Shown here: piece after piece, positions 18,258 through 32,698 of the stretch | How positions within the stretch are numbered: position 1 is the stretch's first letter | How the letters are laid out: each line of letters starts with the position of its first letter | Assembly: GCA_021792405.1 (NCBI GenBank) | Contig: JAJYUU010000050.1 | Span: forward strand, 1-33,415 | DNA length: 33,415 bases | From: Actinomycetes bacterium | GTDB lineage: Bacteria; Actinomycetota; Actinomycetes; Streptosporangiales; Streptosporangiaceae | Direction: 5' to 3' | Position numbers and translations under genes: made by a program | The notes under the pieces: generated by a model | What the model saw: only the letters and a program-made list of their open reading frames with translations | What the model was told of the DNA's origin: nothing | The model's database searches: none

Positions 18258-20144
18258 ATGCATCGCGTCATGAATCGTCGCCCACCGGACCCGGCAGCAG
18301 CGCCAGGTTCGCGCCAGCCAGGCCAGCACGGCGCGCGCCGGGCACGGGCAAAGAGCGCAGGCATCCTCGGGCTGATCGCGCTCGGCGCCACGGTGATCAC
18401 CGCGTGCTCCTCCGCTGGTTCGGGCGCGCCTGCCACGGCCGCGCAGACCACCGCCATCGTCCCCATGAGCGCGGGCAGCACACCGGATCAGATCTTCCCG
18501 ATTTTCACCGGCGCCCAGTACACCGTCGTCAACGAGCAGGACTTCCAATGGCTCATGTACCGGCCGCTGCTCTGGTACGGCGGCCAGCCCGGCAATGAGT
18601 TCGGCCTCTACAGCCAGGTCAGCCTTGCCAACGCGCCGGTCTACAGCAACAACGACACGGTCGTCACCATCACCATGAAGAAATACCTCTGGTCGGACGG
18701 CACGCCGGTGACGGCCAGGGACGTGCAATTCGAGTACAACCTGATCAAGGCGAACAAGACCAGCTACGGCGCTTACACTGCCGGCGCCTTCCCCGACAAC
18801 GTCAAGACGTTCCAGGTGGTCAGCCCGACCGAGATCAAGCTGACGCTGACCAGGTCCTACTCACCGCTCTGGTTCAACACCAACGAACTGGCGCTGCTCA
18901 CGCCGCTCCCGCAGCAGGCCTGGGACAAGACGTCCGCGACCCAGAAGGTCGGCAACTACGACGAGACCACGGCCGGCGCGGTCGCCGTCTACAAGTACCT
19001 GTTCGGCCAGTCCACCCAGCTCAATAACTACGGCACGAACCCGTTGTGGCAGGTGGTGGACGGACCCTGGAAGCTCAAGTCGTTCTCGACCCGCGGCGAC
19101 ATCGTGTTCGTGCCCAACAAGCGCTACTCGGGCCCGGTCAAGCCGACGCTGACCGAGTTCATCGAGCGCCCGTTCACATCCGACACCGCTGAGTTCAACG
19201 CGCTGCTCGCGCAGACCGGCCTGACCACCGGGTCCATCCCGACCGCGGACCTGAGCCAGACCAGCACGCTGGAAAGCGAGGGTTACCGCGTCTACAGGTC
19301 CCTCACCTACGGACTCAACAACGTCTACCTCAACTACAACAACAGCGCCGACGGCGCGCTGTTCCGCCAGCTCTACATCCGGCAGGCGCTGCAGGAGCTG
19401 GTGAACCAGCCGCAGGACGTGCAGTATGCCCTGCACGGCGCAGGAAACCCGAGCTACGGACCGGTCCCGCTGGCGCCGTCCAGCCCGTACACAACCTCGT
19501 ACGAGACCTCGAACCCCTACCCCTACAGCGTGACCGCCGCCAAGCAGCTGCTCACCTCACACGGCTGGGCTGTCCACCCCGGCGGCACCGACACCTGCGC
19601 GCGGCCTGGCAGCGGGCCGACCGAATGCGGTGCCGGGATCGCCGCCGGCCAGGCACTGGCGCTCAAGGTTCTCTACCCGAGCGGCGACCCCGGGTTCGCC
19701 GTCATGATGGAGTCCTGGCAGTCGTCGGCTCGCTCGGCCGGCGTCGCGATGACCTTGAACTCGGGCCAGTTCAACCAGGTCACCTCCGAGATCTCGGTGT
19801 GCAAGACCGGCACCGCGGCGTGCGGCTGGCAAGCTGGCACCTGGGGTGGCTGGACCATGAGCCAGTACCCGACCGGACAGGGCATCTTCACGACCGACAC
19901 CACAGGGATGCCGGCCCCGGTCGGCACCGAGATCAACAACCTGGTTGCCGCTACCGAGTACAGCTCGAACCCGCAGGCGTTCACGACCTATGAGAACTAC
20001 GTGGCCAAGGAACTGCCGACCATCTTCATCCCCTGGGAGCAGGGCAACGACTCGGTAGTGCTCAAGAGCCTGCAGGGCTACACCGCCGATCAGGAGAACC
20101 CGTTCGCGGACACATTCCCTGAGTACTGGCACTTCGGGAAGTAA
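18258..20144 (+). CDS. ABC transporter peptide-binding lipoprotein (SBP family 5, DppA/OppA type)
   Basis: This 628-residue protein begins with a basic, long N-terminus and a hydrophobic segment (about 34-48) ending in a lipobox ITAC, so Cys50 should be lipidated and the protein held on the outer face of the membrane. The mature part has the family-5 substrate-binding layout, with the early FQWLMYRPLLWYGG motif and YLWSDGTPVTARDVQFEYNLI, partly quoted here. This family captures oligopeptides, dipeptides or nickel. AAAGGA precedes the ATG by about 9 bases. It is the first gene of a five-gene operon with two permeases and two D-amino-acid-type hydrolases. Ligand specificity cannot be read, but context suggests peptides with D-residues. 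Confidence 0.93.
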   Translation: MHRVMNRRPPDPAAAPGSRQPGQHGARRARAKSAGILGLIALGATVITACSSAGSGAPATAAQTTAIVPMSAGSTPDQIFPIFTGAQYTVVNEQDFQWLMYRPLLWYGGQPGNEFGLYSQVSLANAPVYSNNDTVVTITMKKYLWSDGTPVTARDVQFEYNLIKANKTSYGAYTAGAFPDNVKTFQVVSPTEIKLTLTRSYSPLWFNTNELALLTPLPQQAWDKTSATQKVGNYDETTAGAVAVYKYLFGQSTQLNNYGTNPLWQVVDGPWKLKSFSTRGDIVFVPNKRYSGPVKPTLTEFIERPFTSDTAEFNALLAQTGLTTGSIPTADLSQTSTLESEGYRVYRSLTYGLNNVYLNYNNSADGALFRQLYIRQALQELVNQPQDVQYALHGAGNPSYGPVPLAPSSPYTTSYETSNPYPYSVTAAKQLLTSHGWAVHPGGTDTCARPGSGPTECGAGIAAGQALALKVLYPSGDPGFAVMMESWQSSARSAGVAMTLNSGQFNQVTSEISVCKTGTAACGWQAGTWGGWTMSQYPTGQGIFTTDTTGMPAPVGTEINNLVAATEYSSNPQAFTTYENYVAKELPTIFIPWEQGNDSVVLKSLQGYTADQENPFADTFPEYWHFGK

Positions 20145-20158
20145 CGGGGAATTGCACG

Positions 20159-21109
20159 GTGATCGCGTACGTCGCACGACGCTGCGTCCAAGGGCTGGTC
20201 GTGGTGGTGCTGGTCTCTTTCCTGACCTTCATCGAAGCCCACATCATGCCGGGCAATCCCGCCCGCGCGATACTGGGCATCCACGCCAGCCCGGCTCAGC
20301 TGCGCGCCTTCGAGATCCAGAACGGGTACAACAGGTCGTTGCCGATTCAGTATTTCGACTACATCGACCGCTTGCTGCACCTGAACCTGGGCTTCTCGTA
20401 TCAGCTCAACCAGAGCGTGGCGTCGCTGCTGAACGAGCGGCTGCCGGCGACGGTGATCCTGGTGGGACTGGCCGTCGTGGTCGCGCTGGTACTGTGCGTG
20501 CCGGTCGCGATCACGCAGGCCGTCCGCCGGAACAAGCCAGTCGACTACGCCATCACCGGTACGGCGTTCGCGCTGTACTCAATGCCGGAGTTCTGGCTCG
20601 GCCTGATGCTGATCATGCTTTTCGCGGAGAAGCTGCGCCTCTTCCCGCCCGTTGCGCCGCAAGGCAACGTCGGGCAGATCCTCACGCATCCCGCAGGCCT
20701 GGTGCTGCCGGTCGCGACGCTTGCGCTCGGCAGCGTCGCCTCGTTCAGCCGCTACCTGCGCTCCTCGCTGCTGGACAACCTGGCCGAGGATTACGTGCGC
20801 ACGGCGCGAGCCAAGGGTGCCTCGCGCCGCGGCGTGCTGTACCGGCATGTGTTCCGCAACGCGCTGGCACCGATCATCACCCTCATCGGGCTGAGCCTGC
20901 CCGGCATACTCAGCGGGGCGCTGATCACCGAGACAGTCTTCAACTACCCCGGAATCGGGCTGCTGTTCTGGAACTCGGCGCTGTCCCAGGACTACGCGGT
21001 CATGCTCGGCATCACCATTATCGTGGCGATCGCGACCGTGGCCGGATCGCTGCTGGCTGACCTGCTGTACGCGGTCATGGACCCGCGGGTCCGCTACGGA
21101 GAGGCGTAG
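20159..21109 (+). CDS. Peptide ABC transporter permease, DppB type
   Basis: This 316-residue inner-membrane protein has about six membrane segments. The N-terminus is YVARRCVQGLVVVVLVSFLTF, and the binding-protein-dependent transport domain covers the second half. The ATPase-contacting EAA loop reads RTARAKGASRRGVLYRHVFRNAL, given here in family form. FNYPGIGLLFWNSALSQDY near the end is typical of DppB. It forms the translocation channel together with the next gene product. The GTG start at 20159 is 14 bases after the binding-protein stop. The usual cognate ATPases (DppD and DppF) are not found in the window. Confidence 0.94.
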   Translation: MIAYVARRCVQGLVVVVLVSFLTFIEAHIMPGNPARAILGIHASPAQLRAFEIQNGYNRSLPIQYFDYIDRLLHLNLGFSYQLNQSVASLLNERLPATVILVGLAVVVALVLCVPVAITQAVRRNKPVDYAITGTAFALYSMPEFWLGLMLIMLFAEKLRLFPPVAPQGNVGQILTHPAGLVLPVATLALGSVASFSRYLRSSLLDNLAEDYVRTARAKGASRRGVLYRHVFRNALAPIITLIGLSLPGILSGALITETVFNYPGIGLLFWNSALSQDYAVMLGITIIVAIATVAGSLLADLLYAVMDPRVRYGEA

Positions 21110-21111
21110 TC

Positions 21112-22026
21112 GTGGCTGATGCCGTCATCGGCGCGGGCGTGCAGGCAGACCGGCCCGCAGACGATGGTCACGCCCGGCCCATCAGCCCGCTGCGTGCTGC
21201 CGCCTACACCATGGCCGCCAATAAGGGGGCCATGGCCGGGCTGGCGGTCATCGTCATCATGGTGATCTTCTCTTTTGCCGGCCCGTTCTTCTACCACTCC
21301 AACCAGATCACCACCGACCTTCCCGCCGCGCTGCATCCGCCGAGCGCGGCGCATCCGCTCGGAACCGACAACGAGGGCTACGACGAACTCGGGCGGCTGA
21401 TGCTGGGCGGTCAGACCTCGCTCGAGGTTGGCGTGGCCGCAGCCGTTGTCGCGACTTTCATCGGCGTCGGCTACGGCGCGGTGTCGGGCTTCGTCGGCGG
21501 CCTTGTCGACGGGCTGATGATGCGTGCCGTCGACGCGCTGCTGGCCATCCCGACCCTGTTCCTGCTCATCTACTTGTTCAGCGTGTACCAGGCCAGCCCC
21601 GTCCTGCTCATCCTGATCATCGGGCTGGTTGCCTGGCTAGTACCGGCGCGCCTAGTCCGAGCCGAGACGCTGTCGCTGCGCACCAGGGAATATGTCCAGG
21701 CGGTCCAGGTGATGGGCGGCAGCAGGATGCGGATGATCACCAGGCACATCATCCCGAACACGATCGGCACGATCACGGTGAACGCCACGTTCCAGGTGGC
21801 CGATGCGATCCTCGTCCTGGCCGGGCTGTCATACCTCGGTCTCGGTATCCCGCCACCCGCTGCCAACTGGGGCGGCATGCTCTCGACGGGCATCAACTAC
21901 GTCTACGCCGGCGACTGGTGGGTGATCTATCCGCCGGGCATCGCGATCGTGGCGACCGTCATGGCGTTCAACGCGGTGGGTGATGCGCTGCGCGATGTCT
22001 TCGACTCGCGCCTGCGGCCCCGCTAG
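21112..22026 (+). CDS. Peptide ABC transporter permease, DppC type
   Basis: This 304-residue partner permease begins with a short cytoplasmic tail, then a membrane segment (GLAVIVIMVIFSFAGPFF) and the periplasmic-side motif HPLGTDNEGYDELGRLMLGG that marks DppC/OppC proteins. The transport domain has further helices, and the EAA loop is VQAVQVMGGSRMRMITRHIIPN. Its GTG start follows the DppB stop with only 2 bases between, so they are translated together. It would pair with DppB to move peptides across the membrane. About 55 bases separate it from the amidohydrolase gene. Confidence 0.94.
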   Translation: MADAVIGAGVQADRPADDGHARPISPLRAAAYTMAANKGAMAGLAVIVIMVIFSFAGPFFYHSNQITTDLPAALHPPSAAHPLGTDNEGYDELGRLMLGGQTSLEVGVAAAVVATFIGVGYGAVSGFVGGLVDGLMMRAVDALLAIPTLFLLIYLFSVYQASPVLLILIIGLVAWLVPARLVRAETLSLRTREYVQAVQVMGGSRMRMITRHIIPNTIGTITVNATFQVADAILVLAGLSYLGLGIPPPAANWGGMLSTGINYVYAGDWWVIYPPGIAIVATVMAFNAVGDALRDVFDSRLRPR

Positions 22027-22084
22027 CTATCGATCTGCCCTGGCTCACCTAGTCCAGTCCCGCAGGGAGACAAGGAGTCTCGCG

Positions 22085-23716
22085 ATGTTCGATGTCCTCA
22101 TCTCCGGTGGCGAGGTCTTTGACGGCAGCGGCGCGGACCCCGTCCGCGCCGACGTCGCCATTGCCGCCGACCGGGTGCTGCAGATCCGCCCGCGCGACGA
22201 GCACGAAACCAGCCGTGCGGGGGCCGACGGCAGTCCGCCGGAAGCCGCCGTCGTCATCGACGCGACCGGGAAAGCGGTCTGCCCTGGCTTCATCAACATC
22301 CTCAGCCACTCCCCCTTGTCGATCCTGCATGACCCGAGGTCGCTGGGTGAGCTGACGCAGGGAGTGACCACGGAAGTGTTCGGCGAGGGCAGCTCGATGG
22401 GCCCGCTGACCCCCCGACTGAAGGCTGAGCTGCAGGACAGCAAGGACGGCCTCAGCTACGAGGTGAGCTGGACGCGGCTGGCCGAGTACCTCCGGCACGT
22501 CGAGAGCCGGGGCAGCTCGCAGAACGTGGCGTCGTTCATCGGCGGCGGCACGCTGCGGATCAACGGCGTCGGATATGACGACCGGCCAGCCACCGCCGCG
22601 GAACTGGACCTGATGCGAGCCATCGTCGCGGAGGAAATGGCGGACGGCGCGCTCGGGATCGCGACAGCGCTGATCTACCCGCCAGGAAGCTATGCGACGA
22701 CAGCCGAGATCACGCAGCTGTGCGCGGTCGCAGCGCAGTACAACGGCTGCTACGCCTCGCACATCCGCAGCGAGGGCGAGAATCTGCACGAGGCCATCGG
22801 CGAGTTCCTGGCGATCTGCCGGGACGCGGGGCTGCGCGGCGAGCTCTTCCACCTGAAGGCGGCCGGCCGGCCGCACTGGGACAAGATGGCCGGCGCCATC
22901 GAGCTGCTGGAGCAGGCGCGCGCGGCGGGAGAGCCGGTGACCGCCGACGTCTACCCCTACCCGGCCAGCTCAACGGGCCTGACCAGCATCATTCCGGACC
23001 GCTATCACGAGGGCGGGTCAGCGGCCCTGTACGACCGGCTCGCCGACCCGCAGGTGCGCGGCCAGATCCGCGCAGAGCTGCAGGGCTCGCACCGCTGGGG
23101 CGACGTCACCGAGGCGGAGAGCGTGCTCATCCTGCAGGTCACCAAGGAGGAGAACCGGCATTTTCAGGGCCGGACGCTGGCCGATATCGCAGCCGAGCGG
23201 GACGCCGATCCGATTGACACGGCGCTCGATCTCATCGCATCCGACCGGTCACGAGTGGGAACCGCGTTCTTCTCGATGTCGGAGGACAACCTCCGTCAGG
23301 CGCTGCGGCGGCCCTGGGTTGCCATCAGCTCGGACGGCGCGTCGATGGCGCCGGAGGGCGCGTTTCTTCAGGCGCCCACTCATCCCAGGGCCTACGGCAG
23401 CTTCGCCAGGGTGCTCGGCCACTACGTCAGGGACGAGAAGGTGCTGACGCTCGCGGACGCGATTCACCGGATGAGCGGGCTTCCCGCGGCCACCCTGGGC
23501 CTGCGGCAGCGGGGCTTGCTGCGCGAAGGCTACTTCGCCGACGTCGTGGTGTTCGACCCGGATGCCGTCACCGACCGCGCTACGTTCGCCGACCCGCACC
23601 AGCTCTCGGCAGGCGTGAGCGAAGTCCTGGTCAATGGCAAGATCACCATCGCCGGCGGCGCTTTTACCGGCGAGCTTCCCGGCCGTGCGCTGGCCGGGCC
23701 GGGGGCGCGGCCGTGA
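22085..23716 (+). CDS. N-acyl-D-amino-acid deacylase-like amidohydrolase with altered metal motif
   Basis: This 543-residue protein belongs to the D-aminoacylase branch of the amidohydrolase superfamily. N-terminal FDVLISGGEVFDGSG and the C-terminal GLLREGYFADVVVFDPD with VLVNGKIT are typical. SHIRSEG gives a metal histidine and ISSDGAS the catalytic aspartate. The first metal motif, normally FID-H-H, reads FINILSH (69-75): Asp becomes Asn71 and the first His becomes Leu73. GVTTEVFGEGSSMGP replaces the usual cysteine region. A subfamily with this change is known to me, so it may use one metal. It would free D-amino acids from acyl- or peptidyl-D-amino acids in the cytoplasm. The ATG at 22085 follows AAGGAG; the frame is open further upstream over the permease gene. 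Confidence 0.87.
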   Translation: MFDVLISGGEVFDGSGADPVRADVAIAADRVLQIRPRDEHETSRAGADGSPPEAAVVIDATGKAVCPGFINILSHSPLSILHDPRSLGELTQGVTTEVFGEGSSMGPLTPRLKAELQDSKDGLSYEVSWTRLAEYLRHVESRGSSQNVASFIGGGTLRINGVGYDDRPATAAELDLMRAIVAEEMADGALGIATALIYPPGSYATTAEITQLCAVAAQYNGCYASHIRSEGENLHEAIGEFLAICRDAGLRGELFHLKAAGRPHWDKMAGAIELLEQARAAGEPVTADVYPYPASSTGLTSIIPDRYHEGGSAALYDRLADPQVRGQIRAELQGSHRWGDVTEAESVLILQVTKEENRHFQGRTLADIAAERDADPIDTALDLIASDRSRVGTAFFSMSEDNLRQALRRPWVAISSDGASMAPEGAFLQAPTHPRAYGSFARVLGHYVRDEKVLTLADAIHRMSGLPAATLGLRQRGLLREGYFADVVVFDPDAVTDRATFADPHQLSAGVSEVLVNGKITIAGGAFTGELPGRALAGPGARP

Positions 23717-24711
23717 CCGCGGCCGAGCTGGTCACCAGCCTCGATCAGGACGCAGCCTGCCAGACGGTGGCCGCGGTCGCGCAGCTGGCGGCAGCCTCCG
23801 GCGGCCACGTCGGCCTGCTCGCCCGGCACCTGGAGACCGGCGAGGAACTCGCCTGGCAGCCCGGCGAGACATTCGGCACGGCCAGCACGGTGAAGGTCGC
23901 GATCTACGCGGAGGTCATGCGGCAACGCCGGCTCGGCCGCATTGACCTCGATGCCGCTGTCGTTACCCGCGAGGCTGACCTGGCAGGCGGCTCGGGCGTG
24001 CTGAGTGTCATGCGGCCAGGAATGCGCTGCACAGTCGCCGATCTGTGCACTCTGATGATCGTGGTGTCGGACAACACTGCCACGAACATGCTGATCGACA
24101 TGCTCGGCGGTGCCGGCGCGGTCAATGACGGCCTGGATGAACTCGGATACCACGACATCCGCCTGAACCACAAGATCGGGTACGCCCCTCCCCCGCTGGT
24201 GGTGGCCGGCTCCCCGCCGTCGCAGGCCAGCTCTGAGCCGCTCGGCTACGCCACCCCGGCCGAGTTCTGCCGCCTGCTCGCCGACCTGCACGCCGGCGCG
24301 GTCGTCGACCCCGAGGCGTCGGCAGAGATGATCACTACGCTGCGCCATCAGCAGTCCCAGTCCCTCGTTCCCCGCGCGTATCTCGATGTCGCCGATCCCC
24401 CGGACGAGCCGGGTCCGGACGGCCCGGCCGTTGCCAGCAAGACGGGCAGCGTCGGCGGCTGCCGAGCGGAGACTGGGCTGCTCTACCTGCCCGGCGACGG
24501 CGGCACGGTGGCGTACTGCGCAGCCGCCGACCGGCTGGCCGACCGGACCATGACGGCACTGGCCGAAGGCAACGAGATTCTCGGCCGGCTGGGCGCGGTC
24601 ATCCTCGCGCGCTGGTGGCCAGGACCCGGTCCGGTGCCAGTCCGCCCGGGCTGGCTGACCGTTCCGGGCCACGTTACGGCAGCCTGCGGATCGAACGAAG
24701 GAAGCGGCTGA
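23713..24711 (+). CDS. Class A beta-lactamase-fold serine hydrolase, probably cytoplasmic
   Basis: This 332-residue protein has all three serine penicillin-recognising motifs: STVK at 58-61 (nucleophile Ser58, Lys61), SDN at 119-121 and KTGS at 243-246. The class A Glu166 position, in the E-x-x-L-N motif, aligns with HDIRLN and appears to be Asp148. There is no signal peptide or lipobox, so it should stay in the cytoplasm, unlike real beta-lactamases. Its GTG overlaps the amidohydrolase stop by 4 bases, which indicates coupled translation. In this operon a D-amino-acid amidase or D,D-peptidase role on imported peptides is more likely than drug resistance. That is inference; a diverged beta-lactamase remains possible. 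Confidence 0.87.
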   Translation: MTAAELVTSLDQDAACQTVAAVAQLAAASGGHVGLLARHLETGEELAWQPGETFGTASTVKVAIYAEVMRQRRLGRIDLDAAVVTREADLAGGSGVLSVMRPGMRCTVADLCTLMIVVSDNTATNMLIDMLGGAGAVNDGLDELGYHDIRLNHKIGYAPPPLVVAGSPPSQASSEPLGYATPAEFCRLLADLHAGAVVDPEASAEMITTLRHQQSQSLVPRAYLDVADPPDEPGPDGPAVASKTGSVGGCRAETGLLYLPGDGGTVAYCAAADRLADRTMTALAEGNEILGRLGAVILARWWPGPGPVPVRPGWLTVPGHVTAACGSNEGSG

Positions 24712-30280: not shown

Positions 30281-30928
30281 TCAGTGACCGGCATCGGCAA
30301 GCTGGCTGGCCATCGCATCGGCGATCGCCGCCGGGCCGGGGCCGGGCTCGCCGCGCAGGCCGGCCACCACGCCCTCACGGTCGGTGTCGCTGCGGTTCTG
30401 GCTTAGCTTCTGCATGGCCTCGACCGCTGTGACAGTCAGCTCGACCCCGACGATCCCGCGCAACTGGCCGTCGATGTAGTCGGGCGGCGCGTCGGTGATC
30501 GCCCACGGATGCTCGCGGCCGCTCTCATGGACGCTCGTCAGCCGGGTGACGAAGGCGCGCAGCCACTCCGGATCGTGGTGGAAGGCGACCGGCCCGGTCA
30601 GGTGCACTGCCTCGTAATTCCAGGTCGGCACCACCCGGCCATGCCGCGTCTTGCTCTCGTACCAGGCAGGCGAAATATAAGCCTGCGGCCCGTGCACGAT
30701 TGCCAGTGCCTGCGCGCCGGGCAGCGCCGTCTGCCACTGCTCGTTGGCGATCGCCATATGGCCGAGCAGCCGCCCGTAACCGTCGTCCTGCCGGTCCCAG
30801 ATGACCGGCAGCAACGTGCTGACCGGCTTGGTGCCGTCGAACGTCACCAGGTCGGCGGACTGCGCCGCCGCTGCGAATGCCGCGATCTGCGCCATATCGG
30901 TGAGCGAGAAATGCCGTGGCAGGTACAT
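30281..30928 (-). CDS. FMN-binding negative regulator, PaiB family
   Basis: This 215-residue protein is a PaiB-type flavin split-barrel protein. MYLPRHFSLTDMAQIAAF is the conserved start; later features are LVTFDGTKPVSTLLPV, GHMAIANEQW, YISPAWYESK and VPTWNYEAVHLTG. In Bacillus PaiB is linked to repression of sporulation and degradative enzymes; biochemical activity is unclear. The ATG at 30928 lacks a good ribosome site, so a leaderless message is possible. The frame is open upstream to 31036, but the conserved start fits 30928. It converges on the MarR gene with 9 bases between stops. Confidence 0.92.
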   Translation of the reverse strand: MYLPRHFSLTDMAQIAAFAAAAQSADLVTFDGTKPVSTLLPVIWDRQDDGYGRLLGHMAIANEQWQTALPGAQALAIVHGPQAYISPAWYESKTRHGRVVPTWNYEAVHLTGPVAFHHDPEWLRAFVTRLTSVHESGREHPWAITDAPPDYIDGQLRGIVGVELTVTAVEAMQKLSQNRSDTDREGVVAGLRGEPGPGPAAIADAMASQLADAGH

Positions 30929-31037: not shown

Positions 31038-31043
31038 TATGCT
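31038..31043 (+). promoter_or_regulatory. Likely -10 element of the T-box leader
   Basis: TATGCT at 31038-31043 would place the transcript start near 31050, just before the first T-box element. A possible -35 (TGTCCA, 31013-31018) is weak. Confidence 0.35.
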
Positions 31044-31049
31044 GGTGCG

Positions 31050-31345
31050 CAACGCGCTGACGGAGACAAGTAGCGCCGGTCCACGCGAGCACCTGCCTGG
31101 CTAACCACACGGCGTGCCAGGCAGCAGAGAGCCACCGGAAGCTGAGAAGGCGGCCTCGCGCCCGGTCGCGAAGACGCTCCCGAGTGCGGGGAGGAACGGC
31201 AGCCGCCGCCAGCGGTTCGCTCAATGCCCCGTCGGCCAGCCCCCGTCATCGGGCCAGTCGAGGCCGGTCCCCGCCGGAAAACACGACGGCGCGGGGCGGC
31301 GAAAGTGCGGTGGCACCGCGAGTTCCCTTATCGCCCGCACTCCCA
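31050..31345 (+). ncRNA. T-box riboswitch leader upstream of the aspartyl-tRNA synthetase gene
   Basis: The leader has the T-box hallmarks. GGAGACAAGTA (31062-31072) matches the 5' GA/AGTA part of stem I, and AGAGAGCC (31126-31133) its 3' part. The T-box core GGTGGCACCGCG is at 31309-31320. AGTGCGG (31304-31310) pairs with CCGCACT (31335-31341) in the antisequestrator helix, with the tRNA-binding bulge TGGC. UGGC would pair with G73-CCA, fitting tRNA-Asp, tRNA-Asn or tRNA-Ser. CTCCC (31340-31344) can pair with GGGAG of the ribosome site at 31399-31403. No U-run terminator is present, so control is likely translational, as in actinobacterial ileS leaders. The specifier codon is not settled: the three bases before AGAGAG read AGC. 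A 9-base hairpin (31093-31101 with 31116-31124) sits in stem I. Confidence 0.85.
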
Positions 31346-31408
31346 AGGGATCATGCGCGCCGGGCGCCCACGGCGATTCCCGGCCTGAGCAGCCCTGAGG
31401 GAGCTGTC

Positions 31409-32698
31409 ATGATCTCCCGCGTACTGTCCGCCGACCTGCCTGAGCACGTCGGGGAGCGAGTCACGATCGCCGGCTGGCTGCACCGCCGCCGGGACCTGAA
31501 GTCGGTAACCTTCCTGATCATCCGCGACCGGGCCGGGCTGGCTCAGGTCGTGCTGCGAGCCGGAGACGAGACCGCCGGCGAGGAAACGGTCCTGCACGTC
31601 GAGGGTCTCGTCGTCGCGAGCCCGCAGGCACCCGGCGGCGTCGAGCTCACCGAGCCGGTGGTGATCCAGCTATCCGGGCCGGCCCAGCCGCCGCCGTTCG
31701 ACCTGTACCGGCCAGCCGTGACCGCCGCGCTGCCCACCATCCTCGACCACGCGCCCGCCACGTTGCGCCACCCGCAGCTGCGGGCCGGGTTCGAGGTCGC
31801 CGCGGCGAGCGCGGCCGGGTTCCGCACCGCGCTGGACCGGGCCGGCTTCACCGAGATCTTCACCCCGAAGATCGTCGGCACGGCAACCGAGGGCGGGGCC
31901 AACGTGTTCAGCATCGACTACTTCGGCCGCCCCGCCTACCTCGCGCAGTCACCGCAGTTCTATAAGCAGGCCATGGTCGGCGTCTTCGAGCGGGTTTACG
32001 AGGTCGGGCCCGCCTTCCGCGCCGAGCCGCACGACACCGCCCGGCACCTCGCGCAGTACACCAGCCTGGACGCAGAGTTTGGCTTTATCACCGACCACTT
32101 CGACGTCATGGCTGTCTGCCGGGACGCCGTCGCAGGCATGGCCGATTCCGTCCGGGAACGGGCGAGTTCCGCCATGCAGTTCCTGGCCGCAAAGCTGCCT
32201 GAGGTGCCGGCCCAGATCCCTTACCTGCACTTCAGTGAAGCCATGGCACTCATCGGCGCGGCGACCGGCGAGGACATCACCGAGGAGCCGGACCTGGCGC
32301 CCGCGCACGAGCGCTGGCTGTGCCAGTGGGCGCAGCGGGAGCACGGCAGCGAGCTGGTCTTCGTCACCGGTTACCCGCTGCACAGCAAGCCGTTCTATAC
32401 CTACCCCGACCCCAGACGACCGCGTTACTCCTATGGTTTCGACTTGCTGTTCCGCGGCACCGAGATCGTGACCGGGGGTCAGCGGCTGCACCGGCACGAG
32501 GATTACCTCCAGGCGCTGGCCGCGCGCGGCATGGACCCGGTGCCGTTCGCCGGCTTCCTGCAGGTGTTCTCCCACGGCATGCCGCCGCACGGCGGGTTCG
32601 CGATCGGGCTGGAGCGCTGGACCGCCCGGCTGACCGGCGCGGCCAACGTCCGGCAGGTCACGCTGTTCCCGCGCGACCTGCACCGGCTCAGCCCGTGA
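31409..32698 (+). CDS. aspS: Archaeal-type aspartyl-tRNA synthetase, perhaps nondiscriminating (Asp/Asn)
   Basis: This 429-residue class IIb synthetase lacks the GAD insertion of normal bacterial AspRS (about 590 residues). The OB-fold anticodon domain (about 1-100) contains GERVTIAGWLHRRRDL. The catalytic domain has YLAQSPQFYKQAMV, motif 2 VGPAFRAEPHDTARH and motif 3 GGFAIGLERW. His25, after GWL, is at the place where nondiscriminating AspRSs have His and discriminating ones often Trp; this is an inference from memory. Such enzymes charge tRNA-Asn with aspartate for amidation by GatCAB. GAGGGAG precedes the ATG at 31409 and is the target of the T-box leader. A housekeeping aspS elsewhere is likely. 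Confidence 0.92.
   Translation: MISRVLSADLPEHVGERVTIAGWLHRRRDLKSVTFLIIRDRAGLAQVVLRAGDETAGEETVLHVEGLVVASPQAPGGVELTEPVVIQLSGPAQPPPFDLYRPAVTAALPTILDHAPATLRHPQLRAGFEVAAASAAGFRTALDRAGFTEIFTPKIVGTATEGGANVFSIDYFGRPAYLAQSPQFYKQAMVGVFERVYEVGPAFRAEPHDTARHLAQYTSLDAEFGFITDHFDVMAVCRDAVAGMADSVRERASSAMQFLAAKLPEVPAQIPYLHFSEAMALIGAATGEDITEEPDLAPAHERWLCQWAQREHGSELVFVTGYPLHSKPFYTYPDPRRPRYSYGFDLLFRGTEIVTGGQRLHRHEDYLQALAARGMDPVPFAGFLQVFSHGMPPHGGFAIGLERWTARLTGAANVRQVTLFPRDLHRLSP

Follow-up and report, generated by a model that had tools for sequence, protein, structure and literature searches.

A T-box riboswitch, predicted to read tRNA-Asp, ahead of second, archaeal-type aspartyl-tRNA synthetase genes in actinomycetes

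Introduction

The T-boxes of Actinobacteria are located mostly upstream of ileS, as stated in a preliminary description of the DNA analyzed here and in agreement with both the loci examined and the literature (PMC1262725). The window, i.e. the whole analyzed stretch of 33,415 nt (positions 1 to 33,415, forward strand, of contig JAJYUU010000050.1 from a Streptosporangiaceae bacterium, GCA_021792405.1), raises the question of what a leader of this kind does ahead of an aspartyl-tRNA synthetase (AspRS) gene, which tRNA it reads and at which step it acts. The sequence comparisons described below indicate that, in all likelihood, a tRNA-Asp-specific translational T-box with a canonical long Stem I controls aspS2, the gene for a second, archaeal-type AspRS.

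The leader and the enzyme

The leader is complete and extends from ~31050 to ~31354, ahead of aspS2 (31409-32698); like the gene, it lies on the plus strand, as do all of its parts described below. The -10 element TATGCT (31038-31043) conforms to the TANNNT found at an equal distance before the leader in ~50 listed leaders, and the transcript is expected to start near 31050. The order of the motifs is GACGGAGACAAGUAG, AGAGAG, GCUGAGAAGGCGGC, CGAAGACG CUCC CGAG, Stem II, the F-box-like CCCCGUCAUCGGG, Stem III and AGUGCGG-UGGCACC-GCGA...UCGC-CCGCACU. Stem I (31054-31184) is of full length, with the lower helix GGAG (31062-31065)/CUCC (31177-31180), the motifs AGUA (31069-31072) and AGAGAG (31126-31131) and the distal GCUGAGAAGGCGGC; in the leader alignment, the AGAGAG motif and the distal module are both present, and Stem I is not of the shortened form. 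The specifier codon GAC (Asp; 31173-31175) follows a conserved GAA. Further downstream are the Stem II region GCGGGG/CCCCGU (31186-31232) and the Stem IIA/B region with the F-box CCGUCA (31233-31260; motif as in PMC7583486), both conserved in the alignment, and Stem III (31261-31300), a covarying helix. The antisequestrator (31304-31341) consists of helices A1 (31304-31310/31335-31341) and A2 (31318-31321/31331-31334), with the bulge UGGCACC (31311-31317) between their 5' strands. Over the full leader, compensatory double changes occur at 16 of the 45 pairs.

The 429 aa product of aspS2 (P0001) matches NF003483, aspartate--tRNA(Asn) ligase, archaeal-type, with 529 bits against a cut-off of 353, which bears out the earlier assignment of the gene as an archaeal-type aspS; with TIGR00458, it falls just below the cut-off. 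The closest solved relative is Thermus thermophilus AspRS2 (1n9w). The product contains His in GWLH and Pro in APGG, in place of the Trp and Lys-Leu of the Thermococcus enzyme (T. kodakarensis, 3nel); we take this His and Pro of the anticodon domain to be residues of a non-discriminating AspRS, and the product is predicted to be such an enzyme. The host genome also encodes a bacterial-type AspRS (contig 204) and GatB, and no AsnRS above the cut-off was found in it; by homology, aspS2 is a second, redundant AspRS gene. Upstream of the host's own ileS, no T-box core was found. Elsewhere in the window, a gene for a PaiB-like FMN-binding protein (30281-30928, minus strand) is divergent from the leader, and oligopeptide-type ABC transporter genes (SBP_bac_5, OppC) adjoin an amidohydrolase within 18258-24711, with a beta-lactamase-like protein at 23713-24711.

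Detection of the T-box

At the gathering score, Rfam RF00230 has no match in the window or in the host genome, whereas under relaxed settings the whole model (1-219) aligns to 31048-31341 with 16.2 bits (E 0.25), against the cut-off of 93. The preliminary description had named the lack of an Rfam hit as a ground for rejecting the T-box; by itself, this outcome is ambiguous, with the entire model aligned at a score far below the threshold. As counter-evidence, the miss can be dismissed because none of 297 genomes of the class reaches the cut-off, with 162 of the 297 matched at E 0.01 or better. Among the more distant relatives, two loci (L042, 93.1 bits, and L058, 115.3 bits) do exceed it. The Rfam cut-off is a detection threshold, not a defining feature of T-boxes, and in its curated form it conceals actinobacterial T-boxes, including the whole aspS2 group.

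To avoid circularity, a covariance model was built from 15 leaders, with the window and its near relatives left out. This leave-clade-out model recovers 31170-31354 with 108.6 bits (E ~1e-29), compared with 15.6 bits for the runner-up in the window. Together with the motifs, which lie where they had originally been placed, and with the like leaders of nearly all relatives (see below), this score confirms, at the level of sequence, that the leader before aspS2 is a genuine T-box.

tRNA specificity

All 27 aligned leaders share the string GAAGAC without variation, and each of the 50 leaders whose Stem I is long or truncated contains it. The codon register, immediately after GAA, is fixed by three independent cases: a leader of this kind before serS in another genus (G226; L121, L153), with CGAA-UCC-A and the bulge UGGC, the ileS leaders, with GAAN-AUC-A and the bulge UGGU, and an Anaerolineae relative (L058), with GAAC-GAC-A. 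Specifier and bulge thus change with the regulated gene, UCC/UGGC for serS, AUC/UGGU for ileS and GAC/UGGC for aspS2. The triplet directly before GAA (CGC), which would specify Arg, was considered as the specifier and rejected, since in the leaders of serS and ileS the codon follows GAA.

In the host, tRNA-Asp (anticodon GUC) and tRNA-Asn carry G73 and tRNA-Ile carries A73, precisely as had been argued from the TGGC bulge. Because of G73, UGGC fits both Asp and Asn; GAC then selects Asp, so that tRNA-Asp is the expected ligand and the original pair of candidates is narrowed to one. Thus, the leader appears to read uncharged tRNA-Asp, not tRNA-Asn.

Control of translation

The helices A1 and A2 are paired in 100% of the cells across 48 leaders, with changes on both sides at 4 pairs, and the energy of the antisequestrator is -13.4 kcal/mol. 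Its 3' strand, CCGCACU, continues into CUCCC; the resulting anti-Shine-Dalgarno (anti-SD) sequence GCACUCCC (31337-31344) overlaps the 3' strand of A1 and, in the window, pairs with the SD region GGGAG-c-UGU (SD GGGAG, 31399-31403) at -11.1 kcal/mol. Outgroups rebuild the anti-SD:SD helix with other letters (GCACUCCC/GGGAGUGC, CACCUCC/GGAGGUG, ACACCUC/GAGGUGU). Neither the window nor the actinobacterial leaders show an evident U-rich terminator downstream of the antisequestrator. From the overlap of the anti-SD with the antisequestrator and the lack of an evident terminator, we infer that control is very probably translational. The overlap noted in the preliminary description therefore holds, and its proposal that uncharged tRNA gates translation is well supported by the sequences.

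A further helix, P1 (31324-31350), can form between UCCCUU in the antisequestrator loop (31324-31329) and AAGGGA just after the anti-SD (31345-31350). All leaders examined can form this pairing, although one terminal pair is often missing; double changes occur at 3 pairs, 2 of them substantial (in Actinocatenispora, Longispora and Kineosporia, UU/AA is replaced by CC/GG or CG/CG). With a spacing of just three bases between P1 and helix A1, P1 should exclude the antisequestrator. A place for P1 in the ON state was rejected because of the geometry, as these three bases would need to span the entire antisequestrator. P1 and the SD helix are predicted to stack as an H-type pseudoknot, which would be the OFF state.

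An alternative in which the antisequestrator loop (AGUUCCCU) itself sequesters the SD was rejected: it suits the window and the Nonomuraea leaders, but in the outgroups pairing of the GCACUCCC type is far better. In the window, the stretch from P1 to the SD is longer by ~30 bases. A local hairpin (31390-31406, CAGCCC-UGAG-GGAGCUG), with similar ones in Nonomuraea leaders, covers the SD and could also mask it, so that access in the ON state is not guaranteed.

Distribution and forms of the leader

In a scan of the relatives of the enzyme (57 loci), 56 of the 57 actinobacterial aspS2 relatives have a T-box leader; the sole one without a T-box, upstream sequence being present, is L016:3082-3582. 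The leader model and an enzyme search were also run on 395 genomes, sampled evenly from the class. The leader model matches 25 of these genomes, and a close aspS2 is present in 21, all of which fall within the 25 and have the leader directly upstream of aspS2. In the same sample, four divergent archaeal-type AspRS genes of one family have no leader match, and no bacterial-type AspRS scores above the cut-off in their genomes, whereas one does in the other 24 tested. The switch thus accompanies aspS2 as a second enzyme, a pattern to which the host genome conforms. In genome G182 (L118), a GAC T-box lies ahead of a divergent archaeal-type AspRS that is ~36% identical to P0001.

Stem I is long in most of the leaders, truncated in Amycolatopsis (L054) and apparently cut down to an ultrashort hairpin, whose loop contains GAC, in Kineosporia (L051-L053), Longispora (L056) and several of the sampled genomes (e.g. 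GGGG-CCUGACACA-CCCC). In two genomes (G306 and G128; L134, L136), what appears to be a T-box of this ultrashort form, again with GAC in its loop, lies ahead of the bacterial-type AspRS gene. In three leaders (L010, L029, L047), the bulge is UGGCACA rather than UGGCACC. Outside the Actinobacteria, a MAG labelled Proteobacteria (L057:4715-4833) has a T-box before aspS2 with the specifier AAC (Asn) and the bulge UGGU; a hairpin and a U run follow, so this T-box is probably transcriptional. A search for a tRNA gene travelling with aspS2 yielded only unrelated tRNAs at a few loci, such as the Trp/Leu/Leu trio after the Actinocrispum aspS2.

Alternative explanations

The non-discriminating character predicted for the enzyme suggests another ligand, tRNA-Asn, alone or along with tRNA-Asp, which would match an AspRS that makes Asp-tRNA-Asn for GatCAB. 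The G73 of tRNA-Asn, the residues of the enzyme, the presence of GatB and lack of an AsnRS above the cut-off in the host, and the AAC specifier of the distant L057 are all compatible with this possibility. Nevertheless, GAC is invariant in every actinobacterial aspS2 leader with a recognizable specifier loop, tRNA-Asn would have to be read with its first codon position mismatched, and the register is pinned by the serS and ileS leaders, so we regard tRNA-Asn as a very improbable ligand and retain tRNA-Asp.

We assign a similarly slight chance to transcription termination as the mode of action. In its favor, most known T-boxes act by termination, a long Stem I is typical of those (PMC7583486), and the T-box of the distant L057 is followed by a hairpin with a U run; against it, no U run comes after the antisequestrator in the window and in the actinobacterial leaders, and the anti-SD:SD helix shows both conservation and covariation. 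Slighter still is the chance that the T-box has decayed and lost its switching function in this organism. The low Rfam score, the 30-base insertion before the SD and the local SD hairpin would fit decay; against it, the defining motifs and helices are all intact, and the anti-SD:SD helix, at -11.1 kcal/mol, is among the stronger ones. Translational control by a working, tRNA-Asp-reading T-box is hence the preferred reading.

Proposed mechanism and role

Under this reading, uncharged tRNA-Asp would bind through its anticodon GUC to the specifier GAC and through its 3' end, GCCA, to the UGGC bulge; the tRNA-bound antisequestrator would stay closed and leave the SD free. With charged tRNA-Asp, the antisequestrator would open, the 3' strand thus freed and the CUCCC next to it would pair with the SD, and this helix, probably joined by P1 as a pseudoknot, would stop translation. 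The physiological effect would be to add the back-up AspRS only when the housekeeping AspRS cannot keep tRNA-Asp charged.

With a tRNA-Asp-reading switch on nearly all of these second AspRS genes, their products would be conditional enzymes, made when Asp-tRNA-Asp is short, a role that is directly testable. The T-box and aspS2 might even constitute a portable rescue cassette of actinomycetes, triggered by tRNA-Asp, that supplies a spare AspRS only when the housekeeping enzyme is starved or poisoned (e.g. by a natural AspRS inhibitor), via a pseudoknot of P1 and the anti-SD that sequesters the SD and is not described for T-boxes; we put this forward tentatively, as possible rather than probable. 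More generally, the leaders extend actinobacterial T-boxes past ileS to Asp and Ser, and the long, truncated and ultrashort forms of Stem I on aspS genes are a natural series that bears on which contacts a translational T-box needs.

Comparison with known systems

The T-box family, aspS as a target in Firmicutes and translational T-boxes in Actinobacteria are already known. Actinomycetales are on record as having second AspRS genes, whose role is unsettled (PMC4206432), and TBDB scanned Actinobacteria, its text naming no aspS (PMC7778990). The literature searched, with TBDB entries and two central papers outside its scope, does not describe the combination of aspS2, tRNA-Asp, a long Stem I and this sequestrator layout, how widespread it is, its tie to an archaeal-type AspRS that is redundant, or the predicted P1 pseudoknot.

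The actinobacterial ileS T-boxes act translationally (PMC1262725, PMC7583486). A few translational T-boxes have a long Stem I, and a shortened Stem I without the elbow-binding module is usual, though not obligatory, in those of Actinobacteria (PMC7583486). The aspS2 leader shares with the ileS T-boxes of Nocardia farcinica and Mycobacterium tuberculosis the actinobacterial origin, the F-box, a UGGN bulge, Stem II and IIA/B, and an antisequestrator that competes with an SD sequestrator. It differs in having GAC, UGGC and a full Stem I that includes the AGAGAG/GNUGNGAA distal module in place of AUC, UGGU and a shortened Stem I (PMC7583486), and in its conserved P1, which is not evident in the ileS leaders inspected.

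Compared with the transcriptional, Firmicutes type of RF00230, the whole model aligns and the Stem I motifs are the same, whereas the aspS2 leader has a sequestrator in place of the terminator. For T. thermophilus AspRS2, we know of no T-box control. In Clostridium acetobutylicum, Saad et al. reportedly found a leader that reads Asn and Glu codons in a gatCAB/aspS operon; the leader described here differs in having an Asp codon and preceding a lone aspS2. T-box control of tRNA-dependent amidation genes in C. acetobutylicum (Saad et al. 2012, 2013, as cited in PMC4206432) is nonetheless akin to the present case in that the genome has an additional AspRS and a T-box is tied to the tRNA-dependent synthesis of asparagine.
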